A DNA stretch of 14,446 bases from Janthinobacterium lividum (lineage in GTDB: Bacteria > Pseudomonadota > Gammaproteobacteria > Steroidobacterales > Steroidobacteraceae): the NCBI GenBank assembly GCA_943327025.2, contig CALPVO020000022.1, forward strand, positions 1 through 14,446. The letters run 5' to 3'. This document shows, one piece after another, positions 10,189-13,925 of this stretch. Both the position numbers and the translations under genes were made by a program. The stretch's first letter is position 1; the number at the start of each line of letters is the position of its first letter. The notes beneath the pieces are model-generated. The model did no database searches. It saw only the letters and a list, made by a program, of their open reading frames with translations, and was not told where the DNA came from.

Positions 10189-12645
10189 ATGGAATTCATG
10201 AACTTGAACATCTCACGCAGCACTCGTTCCCAAGCCGTCGGGCAGGTTCTCGCCCGCACCCTCGCCGAGCGCTTGCGGTTTTGGCGTGCTCCCGCGCTGG
10301 CTTTGCTGGTGGCCTTGGCTGCCCTTTGGCCAGCCGCCGCCCCCCGCGCGGAGGACGACTTCATCCCGCCCGAGCAGGCTTTCAAGTACAGCGTCACCGC
10401 CACTGCGGACACCATTACTGTCCAGTGGACTGTCGCTCAGGGCTATTACCTCTACCGCAAACGACTGGGTTTCGAGTCCAGCACGCCCGGCATAACGCTC
10501 GGCGCTCCCGTGTTCCCGAAGGGCATCGACCACGAAGACGAGTTCTTCGGCAAACAAGAGGTGTACCGCGGTGCCGGCAACCGCTTCGTGCTGCCCTACA
10601 CCCGCGCCGGCAATACCGTCGCCAATGGCCCGGCTAGCGCCACGGTGCTGCTGAAACTGCAGGGCTGCGCCGACGCCGGTCTGTGTTACCCGCCCCTGAA
10701 GTGGACCGCAACCGTCGCCCTGCCACCTGCCGCGCGGGCAGAGAGTCAGGCCAGCAGCCCCGCGTCGGGCGCATCGGTCACCTCACCAGTCACCTCACTG
10801 GCTGGGTTGAAAGCACTCGCCAGTACGGGCAAGGCGCGTAGTGCCAATCAGGAGTTTCTACCGCCAGCGGAAGCCTTCCGCGTCTCGGCCACCGCCCTCG
10901 CCGCAGACCGCATCCGCGTGTCGTTCATGGTGGCGCCCGGCTATTACCTCTACCAGAAGCGCCTGAAAGCGACACTGGAAGGGGCACCGACCGGTGTAAC
11001 GCTCACCCCGGTCACCTGGCCGGCGGGAATCGACCACAACGACGAATTCTTCGGCCAGCAAACCGTCTACCCGGAAAGTTTCGAGGCCGAACTGGTCCTC
11101 CAGCGTGGCGATTCCGTTGGCGCCCTCACGGTCGGCCTGACCCTCGGCTTGCAAGGCTGCGCTGACGCGGGCCTGTGCTACCCGCCGGAAACCCGACGCC
11201 TCACGGTGGTATTGCCGGCCGTGGGTACTGCACCCCCTGCGCCGATGGTGCCAACCGAGGGGACGGCACCGAGCGACTCCGAGGCGAGCGCGGCCAATGC
11301 GTCCGCTGAAGCCAGTGCTGCCTCACCTGCCGCCAGCGGCATGGTCTCCGAGCAAGACCGCTTGGCCAAGCTCGTGGCCAACGGTTCGCTGTGGCTGGTG
11401 CTGGCCTCGTTCTTCGGCTTCGGCCTGTTGCTGGCCTTCACGCCGTGCGTACTGCCCATGATCCCCATCCTCTCCGGCATCATCGCGGGACAAGGCGAGC
11501 AGGTCACCCCCATGCGCGGGTTCCTGCTGTCACTGTCTTATGTGATGGGCATGGCGCTCACCTACACCATCGCGGGTGCCGCCTTCGCTGCGGCCGGCCA
11601 GCAGGCACAAGCCATCTTCCAGCAGCCATGGATTCTCGCGCTGTTCGCGCTGCTGTTCGTCGGTTTGGCGCTCGCCATGTTCGGCTTCTATGAACTGCAA
11701 CTACCCGCCGGCCTGCAGACACGCCTGAACGGTGTGAGCGGCAAACTCTCGGGCGGCAAGGTGCTGTCCACCGCCCTCATGGGGGCACTGTCCTCGCTGG
11801 TGGTCACCGCCTGCGTGGCGCCGCCGCTCGTCGCCGCGCTGGCAGTCATCAGTCAAACCGGTAGCGTGCTGCGCGGTGGTCTTGCCTTGTTCTCCCTGTC
11901 CATCGGCATGGGCGCCCCCTTGCTGGTAGTCGGCGCGTCTGCCGGCAAGCTGCTGCCGCGTGCTGGTGCCTGGATGGAAACCGTCAAGCAAGTCTTCGGC
12001 GTGCTCTTCCTCGGCGTGGCCGTCTGGATGGCCGAACGCATCCTGCCCGAGCGACTCGTCATGGTGCTGTGGGCCGGCGTGGCGGGCGCGGCGCTCTGGG
12101 TATTCTGGCCGCGGCGCGGTTGGCGCCCCTTCGGCGCCGGCCTTGCCCTGCGCGGCGTGCTCGTAGCAGCAGCCGTGCTGTGGGGGCTTGCCCTGCTGGT
12201 CGGCGCGGGCTTCGGCGGCAAGGACCCCCTGCGCCCGTTTGAGGGCACGCGCTTCGGCGCCGCAACGCCGCAGGCGCTCGTATTCACGCGCATCCACTCC
12301 GTGGCCGACCTCGACCGGGAACTGGCTGCCGCCCAAGCGGCGGGCAGACGGGTCATGGTCGACTTCTCCGCCGAATGGTGCGTGTCCTGCAAGGAAATGG
12401 AGAAGTACACCTTCCGGGACCCCGCCGTACAGGCGGCGTTGGCCCCCTATGTGCTGCTGCAGGCGGACGTCACCGCCAACAGCGCGGAAGACCAAGCCCT
12501 GCTGCAGCGCTTTGCTATCTTCGGCCCCCCCACCACCGCGTTCTTCGGCCCCGAAGGACGTGAACGGACCGACTTCCGACTGGTAGGCTTCGTAGCTGCA
12601 GAGCCGTTCCGTGCCCACCTAGCCCGCCTGGAAAAGACTCCATGA
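10189..12645 (+). CDS. dsbD: Thiol:disulfide interchange protein DsbD with two tandem N-terminal alpha domains
   Basis: DsbD carries electrons from cytoplasmic thioredoxin across the inner membrane to periplasmic reductases. The 818-aa protein (E. coli 565) has a signal segment (about 32-56, ending PAAAPRAE) and two complete alpha domains. Alpha 1 has GCADAGLCYPP with Cys160/Cys166; alpha 2 has the same motif with Cys324/Cys330. Each also has PPxxAF, GYYLYxKR, GIDHxDEFFG and VY. An Ala/Ser/Pro linker follows. The eight-helix beta domain has TPCVLPM (Cys420) and TACVAPP (Cys542), 122 residues apart as in E. coli. The gamma thioredoxin domain has EWCVSCK (Cys731/Cys734). All cysteines of the relay are present. 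ATG 10189 and ATG 10198 are both possible; neither has a strong ribosome site. The stop overlaps the tlpA start (ATGA), so the two are translationally coupled. Confidence 0.96.
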   Translation: MEFMNLNISRSTRSQAVGQVLARTLAERLRFWRAPALALLVALAALWPAAAPRAEDDFIPPEQAFKYSVTATADTITVQWTVAQGYYLYRKRLGFESSTPGITLGAPVFPKGIDHEDEFFGKQEVYRGAGNRFVLPYTRAGNTVANGPASATVLLKLQGCADAGLCYPPLKWTATVALPPAARAESQASSPASGASVTSPVTSLAGLKALASTGKARSANQEFLPPAEAFRVSATALAADRIRVSFMVAPGYYLYQKRLKATLEGAPTGVTLTPVTWPAGIDHNDEFFGQQTVYPESFEAELVLQRGDSVGALTVGLTLGLQGCADAGLCYPPETRRLTVVLPAVGTAPPAPMVPTEGTAPSDSEASAANASAEASAASPAASGMVSEQDRLAKLVANGSLWLVLASFFGFGLLLAFTPCVLPMIPILSGIIAGQGEQVTPMRGFLLSLSYVMGMALTYTIAGAAFAAAGQQAQAIFQQPWILALFALLFVGLALAMFGFYELQLPAGLQTRLNGVSGKLSGGKVLSTALMGALSSLVVTACVAPPLVAALAVISQTGSVLRGGLALFSLSIGMGAPLLVVGASAGKLLPRAGAWMETVKQVFGVLFLGVAVWMAERILPERLVMVLWAGVAGAALWVFWPRRGWRPFGAGLALRGVLVAAAVLWGLALLVGAGFGGKDPLRPFEGTRFGAATPQALVFTRIHSVADLDRELAAAQAAGRRVMVDFSAEWCVSCKEMEKYTFRDPAVQAALAPYVLLQADVTANSAEDQALLQRFAIFGPPTTAFFGPEGRERTDFRLVGFVAAEPFRAHLARLEKTP

Positions 12646-13322
12646 CCGAGAATGCCGAAGGCCAAGCCCGTTCCTTGCTGAACCACCCCACCCTGCGCCT
12701 CGCCGGCCTAGCCCTCGCTGCCGGCCTGTTGGGCGCGGGCGGCTATCTGGCCTACGACCGGTGGTTGTCCCCAACAGGCGTAGCCGATAACACAACGGTG
12801 CCGACCAGTGGCATGGCCAACGAACTCGAACGTCCGAAAGTTCCGGAGATACGCCCCGAATTCACCCTGAAAAACCTGCAAGGGGAACCGGTGGCCATGA
12901 GCCACTGGCAGGGTAAAGCGGTGGTGGTGAACTTCTGGGCCACCTGGTGCGGCCCCTGCCAGCGGGAGATTCCGCTGCTGAACCGCATGGCGGCCGAGTA
13001 CGGCCCCAAGGGCCTGCATATTGTCGGCATTGCCGTCGATTTTGCGGAGGACGTGCAGAAGTTTGTCGCTAAAACGCCGCTCGACTACCCCACCTTGGTC
13101 GGCGAGGAAGACGGCGCCGCCGCGGCCACGGCGTTTGGCATCGACTCGCTGGCTTTCCCGTTCACGGCTTTCACGGACAAGCAGGGACGCGTCCTTTCGG
13201 TGCATTTGGGCGAATTGCACGAACCCGAACTGCGCGTCATTCTTGACGCCATCGTCGCCGTCGATGCCGGTAAAATGTCGCTAGCCGACGCCCGCGCCAA
13301 AATCGCTGCCAGCAAAAGCTAG
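12642..13322 (+). CDS. TlpA-like membrane-anchored thioredoxin family disulfide reductase
   Basis: A 226-aa protein with a short cytoplasmic N-terminus, one membrane anchor (LAGLALAAGLLGAGGYLAY, about 20-38) and a periplasmic thioredoxin fold. The active site is WATWCGPCQREIP with Cys103 and Cys106. The fold continues through GIAVDF, FGIDSLAFPFTAF, which carries the cis-proline region, and DKQGRV. The start is ATG 12642, overlapping the dsbD stop by the ATGA arrangement. Coupling to DsbD suggests that DsbD keeps this protein reduced and that it is a client reductase, for example in cytochrome c maturation or repair of periplasmic thiols; the substrate is not shown by the sequence. TlpA and ResA/CcmG relatives are hard to separate by eye, so no symbol is given. 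Confidence 0.92.
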   Translation: MTENAEGQARSLLNHPTLRLAGLALAAGLLGAGGYLAYDRWLSPTGVADNTTVPTSGMANELERPKVPEIRPEFTLKNLQGEPVAMSHWQGKAVVVNFWATWCGPCQREIPLLNRMAAEYGPKGLHIVGIAVDFAEDVQKFVAKTPLDYPTLVGEEDGAAAATAFGIDSLAFPFTAFTDKQGRVLSVHLGELHEPELRVILDAIVAVDAGKMSLADARAKIAASKS

Positions 13323-13445: not shown

Positions 13446-13925
13446 ATGGATATCCGCAAGGTCAAGAAGCTCATCGAACTGCTCGAAGAATCGGGCATCG
13501 CCGAGATCGAGATCAAGGAAGGTGAGGAGAGCGTTCGCATCAGCCGCCACTCCCCCGGTGCCATGATGGCGCCAATCCAGTACACGCTACCCCCGCAGGC
13601 GGCCCCGGCCGCTGCCCACGCCGCCCCGGCCGCCCCGGCCGCCCCGGTGGCTGCTGCCTCGGCCGCCGCTCAGGCCCCCACCGTCAGCGCCGAAAACACC
13701 GTCACGGCTCCCATGGTGGGCACGTACTACGCCTCGGCCTCGCCGGGTGCCAAAGCATTCGTCGAGATTGGCTCGGAAGTGAAGGCCGGCCAGACGCTCT
13801 GCATCATCGAAGCCATGAAGATGATGAACCAGATTGAATCCGACCGCGCCGGCAAGGTGGTTTCCATCCTCGCCAGCAACGGCGAGCCGGTGGAATTCGG
13901 CCAGCCCCTGTTCATCGTCGAATAA
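13446..13925 (+). CDS. accB: Biotin carboxyl carrier protein of acetyl-CoA carboxylase
   Basis: AccB carries the biotin that AccC carboxylates and AccAD uses to make malonyl-CoA, the committed step of fatty acid synthesis. The 159-aa protein has the N-terminal helical segment ([23 protein letters not shown]) and an Ala/Pro hinge (about 50-78) encoded partly by repeated GCCCCGGCC. The biotinyl domain follows, with [10 protein letters not shown], the thumb segment [15 protein letters not shown] and the biotinylation motif EAMKMMN (Lys125). ATG 13446 is preceded by GAGGGGA about 9 bases upstream. accC follows after 9 bases, so the two form an operon. The aroQ gene that often precedes accB in gammaproteobacteria is not here; tlpA is the upstream neighbour. 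Confidence 0.98.

Follow-up and report, generated by a model that had tools for sequence, protein, structure and literature searches.

The window, by which we mean the whole stretch of 14,446 nucleotides that was analysed, carries a gene for a DsbD-type thiol:disulfide reductase in which the alpha domain is present twice, followed on the same strand by two further genes (Table 1). The ends of both alpha domains were placed by eye.

Table 1. Features of the double-alpha dsbD gene and of the genes downstream of it (window coordinates)
Feature	Position	Strand	Basis or remark
dsbD, double-alpha thiol:disulfide reductase, 818 aa	10189..12645	+	open frame; NCBIfam NF001419
signal-peptide-like stretch, residues ~30-53	10276..10347	+	by eye: hydrophobic run ahead of alpha1
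alpha1 (outer DsbD_N), residues 54-180, Cys160/Cys166, cap loop HEDEFFG	10348..10728	+	Pfam, residues 56-176
alpha1-alpha2 linker, Ala/Ser-rich, residues 181-220	10729..10848	+	sequence
alpha2 (inner DsbD_N), residues 221-346, Cys324/Cys330, cap loop HNDEFFG	10849..11226	+	domain match 10849-11208
alpha2-beta linker, Ala/Pro/Ser-rich, residues 347-388	11227..11352	+	fast-changing
beta, transmembrane domain, residues 389-690, Cys420/Cys542	11353..12258	+	PF02683 at 401-619, 306.8 bits
gamma, thioredoxin-like, residues 691-818, Cys731-V-S-Cys734	12259..12642	+	PF13899 at 706-788
tlpA/resA-like periplasmic thioredoxin, possible client	12642..13322	+	AhpC-TSA 81.6 bits; 4-base overlap with dsbD end
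accB-like biotin carrier protein	13446..13925	+	Biotin_lipoyl 85.4 bits

The product is a true DsbD. It passes the curated threshold of the family (NF001419, 694.9 bits against a cut-off of 330), the sole NCBIfam model above its own cut-off for this protein, and its eight cysteines make up the four expected redox pairs (160/166, 324/330, 420/542 and 731/734). The traits of the family are all found: a DsbD_N domain with a C-x5-C pair, here twice, a DsbD_TM domain with two cysteines and a C-terminal CVSC motif. What is absent is the single alpha of the characterised members, a trait that lies outside the profile definition. Double-alpha proteins (P0035, P0044 and others) are named protein-disulfide reductase DsbD by NCBI in the same way, and the window protein is therefore best regarded as a variant inside the DsbD family.

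The earlier note on this DNA had proposed two complete alpha modules and had reserved the case of a profile search yielding only one. Pfam finds two DsbD_N stretches, besides one DsbD_TM and one thioredoxin-like domain, and the motifs and the pairs Cys160/166 and Cys324/330 lie where they had been placed. The two stretches reach 189.3 bits combined (Pfam cut-off 25) and, scored singly, 102.3 bits (10354-10716) and 96.0 bits (10849-11208). Each alpha separately matches solved nDsbD chains (best values 1.1e-21 for alpha1 and 1.6e-17 for alpha2), gamma matches solved gamma domains of E. coli with E values down to 9.6e-32, and the two alphas are 48% identical to each other over 128 columns (E = 1e-33). 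Translation may start at codon 1 or codon 4, the latter being the start of the database protein P0002. Three further records of 612 aa (P0024, P0025 and P0027), near-identical to the window protein, begin at its TTG codon 207 and are devoid of alpha1; either their start was called differently or their frame is broken upstream.

An assembly fault can be ruled out, since the tandem is also present in each of three genomes of the same genus (G001, G002 and G003), and an 819-aa protein with 97% identity over residues 50-360 represents 49 member sequences. At the DNA level, the longest gapless stretch found to be shared by alpha1 and alpha2 is 52 bases with 77% identity, thus the pair is neither a recent duplication nor an assembly repeat. 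The latter, considered as a source of the two alphas, is rejected on account of both this divergence and the same-genus genomes.

Occurrence and history of the double-alpha form

The domain search over homologues that the earlier note had recommended was run, with a tandem defined as two DsbD_N matches side by side on the same contig and strand; the double-alpha form proved to be widespread. Among relatives, it was detected in 31 of 58 other genomes (13 of 35 in the family of the window and 18 of 23 in the remaining order). In a class-wide draw, at least 39 of 113 other genomes of the same class carried it, and 10 of the 113 had no DsbD_N match; outside the genus of the window the count is at least 38 of 112, about one third of the sampled families. 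A phylum-wide draw of 120 genomes gave a DsbD_N match in 59, and the tandem was found there in 3 of 27 genomes of the window's class besides its own (G068, G255 and G259), and in none of the 31 DsbD_N-bearing genomes of other classes. In the relatives, class and phylum surveys the loci analysed were the best-scoring matches, with no random draw, and four loci below the alpha profile (L145-L148) were left out. The 80 best loci from named genomes comprise 78 double and 2 single forms (L075 and L076), a set which is biased because the search query was itself a double-alpha protein. In one locus (L018) an insert splits alpha1. Cultured species with the double-alpha form include Peristeroidobacter soli (L012), Povalibacter uvarum (L016) and Luteimonas panaciterrae (L065).

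Two irregular cases were encountered in these surveys. In one genome of the window's family, DsbD_N occurs in two separate frames of 695 and 660 aa (G020:C47 and G020:C49), with no tandem. Contig CALQLF020000055.1 (L003) is titled Candidatus Planktophila lacus, an actinobacterium, yet it matches G001:C55 of a genome placed in the window's own genus; the label is probably a wrong name or a wrong bin.

Concerning the literature, the earlier note knew of no described double-alpha DsbD, and searches of an open-access collection, in which most subscription papers are missing, showed no such description. As far as searched, the form is undescribed.

A tree was built from the beta and gamma domains of 61 proteins: the window protein, 20 of each form (single and double) from the class survey, and 10 of each from its own family. 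The two forms are mixed on this tree, with at least 14 changes between them, 7 of which are forced by well-supported branches; the branches are very long, that of L205 being the worst, and some joins may be false. Within the window's family six single-alpha groups can be counted on the tree as drawn, some of them on weak forks. Trees of the alpha domains themselves are poorly resolved. In a topology test, from which L179, L181, L204 and L205 had been dropped beforehand, grouping all alpha1 domains together is allowed (p-AU 0.80), and so is grouping alpha1 and alpha2 of the window's family together (p-AU 0.83). Since several families have the alpha classes described below in common, the pattern is most simply read as repeated loss of alpha1, and the sequences suggest one old duplication followed by such losses. 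Gene exchange between lineages, or separate duplications, are also possible sources of the mixed pattern. Loss by crossover inside the repeats, expected to leave chimeric lone alphas, received no support among 32 lone domains examined in two directions each (lowest p 0.04).

Two classes of alpha domain

The alpha domains were compared in an alignment of 103 double-alpha proteins (window protein included, its copies L001 and L133 excluded) and 40 lone alphas, which makes 246 domain rows, 238 of them distinct. Both cysteines are kept in all 103 alpha1 and all 103 alpha2 domains, as are D117 and Q158 (window alpha1 numbering). Other positions separate the copies: R127 is present in 95/103 alpha1 vs 9/103 alpha2 domains and Y157 in 8/103 vs 78/103, D162 is found in 100/103 alpha1 and R139 in 94/103 alpha2. 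Class profiles cross-validated over 40 clusters assigned 100 of the 103 alpha1 and 101 of the 103 alpha2 domains correctly, and profiles built from 20 doubles of other families labelled the window's family without error (11/11 alpha1 and 11/11 alpha2). In the reverse test, profiles from the window's family recognised alpha2 of other families in 20/20 cases, but alpha1 in only 8/20; they also called 20/20 lone alphas of other families alpha2-like, a verdict which says little because these profiles mislabel the alpha1 of other families. The outer and the inner copy are recognisable classes, and the asymmetry of the two is the interesting part of the finding. The two copies are joined by a linker whose profile-to-profile gap has a median of 31 aa (range 16-53) over 102 double-alpha loci; the alpha2-beta linker was measured by means of a TM1 motif present in only 38 doubles and 21 singles.

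Both alphas are under purifying selection against the same-genus relative G001, and the linkers are looser. Beta has a dN/dS of 0.024, alpha1 of 0.064, gamma of 0.123 and alpha2 of 0.129; in the alpha1-alpha2 linker the ratio is 0.350, and the alpha2-beta linker (residues 347-385) has 42% amino acid identity to that relative. Against G003, alpha1 gives 0.205 and alpha2 is without any change; against G002, where synonymous sites approach saturation, the values are 0.242 and 0.203. The view of the earlier note that the diverged copies keep their redox residues and are both under selection is borne out by these ratios together with the complete conservation of the cysteine pairs.

A further difference concerns the cap loop. 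In E. coli nDsbD the active-site disulfide is shielded by F70 of the cap loop, a loop that stands open in the complexes formed with gamma, DsbC and CcmG (PMC7347389). An aromatic residue equivalent to F70 is present in 98/103 alpha1 domains, 64/103 alpha2 domains and 29/40 lone alphas; the window protein has it in both alphas. Alpha2 is without it in 39/103 proteins (14/40 clusters by majority). A capped alpha1 combined with an uncapped alpha2 occurs in 38 proteins (13/40 clusters by majority), and the opposite combination in 4 proteins (1 cluster). An insert of five alignment columns, of the type KQDSIRPDGTIG, rebuilds the cap loop of alpha2 in symbionts of bivalves and tubeworms and in their relatives (loci L049, L068, L070, L072, L073, L074, L078, L079 and L081).

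Covariation of the alphas with gamma, a measure that does not reveal contacts, was assessed by a mirror-tree test with beta as background, in sets that overlap in genomes. Lone alphas of 30 singles co-vary with gamma (0.279, p 0.017). For alpha2, the value is 0.356 in 77 query-biased doubles, whose rows are related, and none of 300 permutations reaches it; the thinned sets give 0.461 (13 rows, p 0.003) and 0.293 (21 rows, p 0.023), and the unthinned survey sets 0.157 (30 doubles, p 0.057) and 0.203 (20 class doubles, p 0.127). Alpha1 gave no significant covariation with gamma in any of five sets (-0.047 to 0.106, p at least 0.27), with values of 0.004 in the 77 doubles, -0.023 in the 30 doubles and 0.056 in the 21 thinned rows. 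The interval of the difference between alpha1 and alpha2 excludes zero in the 77-row set only, whose rows are related. Covariation with gamma is thus a tendency that alpha2 shares with lone alphas and that alpha1 does not show in these alignments.

Comparison with lone alphas bears on the question which copy is the canonical one. In the wider set, 32/40 lone alphas score nearer alpha2, and among the class singles 19/20 are alpha2-like. In the window's family the count is 9/10 with the 20-family profiles and 8/10 with larger profiles, under which two lone alphas score alpha1-like, the assignments often being made by few bits. In the alpha tree, 6/10 lone alphas of this family group with its alpha2, and two (L173 and L178) stand beside its alpha1 on a long branch. 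The two class profiles score E. coli nDsbD alike (113.6 and 112.8 bits), and the window alpha1 is nearer than alpha2 to the solved E. coli and Neisseria alphas (80.8 vs 66.9 and 77.5 vs 66.0 bits, respectively). Since these comparisons do not favour alpha2, its designation as canonical rests on lone alphas of nearer lineages.

Neighbouring genes and possible clients

The product of the tlpA-like gene scores 92 bits against the ResA model NF002854, below the cut-off of 170. The earlier note had hinted at the coupled TlpA as a special client of the extra alpha. This idea was abandoned, since single- and double-alpha loci do not differ in their neighbourhood, tlpA lying 3' of dsbD in 21/28 single-alpha and 22/30 double-alpha survey loci with room for it (two further singles are without room). 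In the query-biased set, tlpA is next in 41/73 doubles with room and in 0/2 singles, 5 doubles being without room. The accB gene adjoins many dsbD loci of both the single- and the double-alpha type, often beyond tlpA. Elsewhere in the window, a 12-base repeat (2062-2151, 7.5 copies, 92% matches) lies at the 3' end of a Kdo/WaaP-like LPS kinase gene (2073-2957, - strand) and encodes a tail of QTLG/QTLD repeats.

Across families, the number of CcmG/TlpA-like proteins, counted with matches below the TIGR00385 cut-off included, has a median of 9.5 in tandem genomes vs 5.0 (t 6.8 with genome size modelled), and in the class subset of 20 vs 20 genomes it is 10 vs 6 (p 0.0017, size-corrected 0.029). 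Within the window's family no such excess was observed (7.0 vs 6.5, p 0.52), and independent pairs were too few to be informative. DsbC is present in 37/38 tandem genomes vs 47/64 others (p 0.002), and among genomes of 2.4-4.0 Mb in 27/28 vs 32/36. In the genome of the window, which is 75% complete, DsbC_N is matched once and CcmG/TlpA-like proteins six times. A larger set of periplasmic thioredoxin-like clients as the cause of the double-alpha form is only a lead. One genome of the window's family (G014) stands out with at least 48 CcmG/TlpA-like matches (48 scored of 102 candidates), far above its kin, and with four DsbD_N matches on four contigs.

Possible roles of the two alpha domains

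In E. coli, electron flow is established to run from thioredoxin through beta, gamma and alpha to the clients (PMC7347389, PMC4460558), and what nDsbD is paired with in its solved complexes, namely gamma, DsbC and CcmG, are thioredoxin folds (PMC7347389). The reading which we put forward, tentatively and with slightly less than even confidence, is that of an old alpha duplication after which alpha2 kept the canonical pairing with gamma, alpha1 being an additional arm for delivery with a more reliable cap. The alpha domain would have been duplicated before the families sharing the double-alpha form diverged. Electrons would pass, as in the E. coli protein, from thioredoxin to beta (Cys420/542) and on to gamma (Cys731/734), which would reduce alpha2 in its canonical role. 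Alpha1, carried on a flexible linker and endowed with a conserved face of its own and a reliable cap-loop aromatic, would be a second redox-active arm, presumably also charged by gamma. Periplasmic proteins with a thioredoxin fold (TlpA-, CcmG- or DsbC-like) could receive its electrons, with some division of clients between the arms. Direct charging of alpha1 by gamma is preferred because of the thioredoxin-fold partners in the solved complexes, but some covariation between alpha1 and gamma might then be expected, and its absence from the five sets counts against it.

That absence is what a serial relay would account for. In such an arrangement gamma reduces alpha2 only, alpha2 passes electrons to alpha1 by disulfide exchange between two Ig folds, and alpha1 alone meets the clients. 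If true, it would explain why alpha2 tracks gamma and is often uncapped, and why alpha1 is capped and does not track gamma; the distribution of the cap aromatic fits a protein in which only the terminal domain has to hold electrons for long. On the other hand, the thioredoxin folds of all the nDsbD partners in solved complexes speak against it, and lone alphas may also be without the aromatic (11/40), yet must perform the whole job. We know of no precedent for thiol exchange from one Ig-fold alpha to another, and a relay of this kind, which we consider unlikely, would be an Ig-to-Ig thiol relay without a known example.

The two alphas could also be equivalent and perform the same tasks, the gain being a higher local concentration and throughput. 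Retention of all redox cysteines in both copies agrees with such redundancy, and one copy would seem to be dispensable, given that the extra domain may be present or absent within an unchanged gene setting. However, the copies fall into distinct classes with different conserved residues, R127 and Y157 among them, and differ in their covariation with gamma, so that simple dosage appears rather unlikely, albeit with some chance of being correct. A mainly structural or regulatory alpha1, acting as a spacer, dimer contact or oxidation guard in which the cysteines matter little, seems highly improbable: although it is alpha1 that most of the tested single-alpha relatives do without, the invariant cysteines and the nearly constant cap aromatic speak for catalysis.

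Disulfide isomerases, cytochrome c maturation and periplasmic repair all draw their electrons from DsbD as a hub, and models of this protein assume that one alpha is both the acceptor from gamma and the donor to all clients. In about one third of the sampled families of the class, these two jobs may sit on separate alphas. With single-alpha relatives sharing the gene setting and double-alpha species available in culture, the question of one versus two alphas is directly testable.

Domain fusion in DsbD was reportedly dealt with by Katzen et al. in 2002. The alpha of ScsB (suppressor of copper sensitivity B) is said to be called a 'tandem immunoglobulin-fold domain' in the title of a paper; to our knowledge, its second fold is without a redox pair. 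By its published description, ScsB has the same alpha-beta-gamma plan and keeps a thioredoxin-fold client reduced (PMC8900818); none of the chains that matched by sequence was an ScsB. CcdA resembles the window DsbD in its beta domain and in its electron route, which leads to CcmG (PMC4460558), but consists of a beta domain only. The TsoB-type rhodanese/DsbD fusion selenoprotein model (NF045694) gives 197.9 bits against a cut-off of 805, its best stretch lying over the window beta; the fusion has a rhodanese domain, whereas none is reported by Pfam or NCBIfam in the window protein. The DsbD of E. coli and Neisseria (nDsbD structures such as 1L6P, 3PFU, 1VRS and 6DPS) has the same alpha-beta-gamma order, the same cysteine pairs per domain and the cap loop, with one alpha there and two in the window protein.
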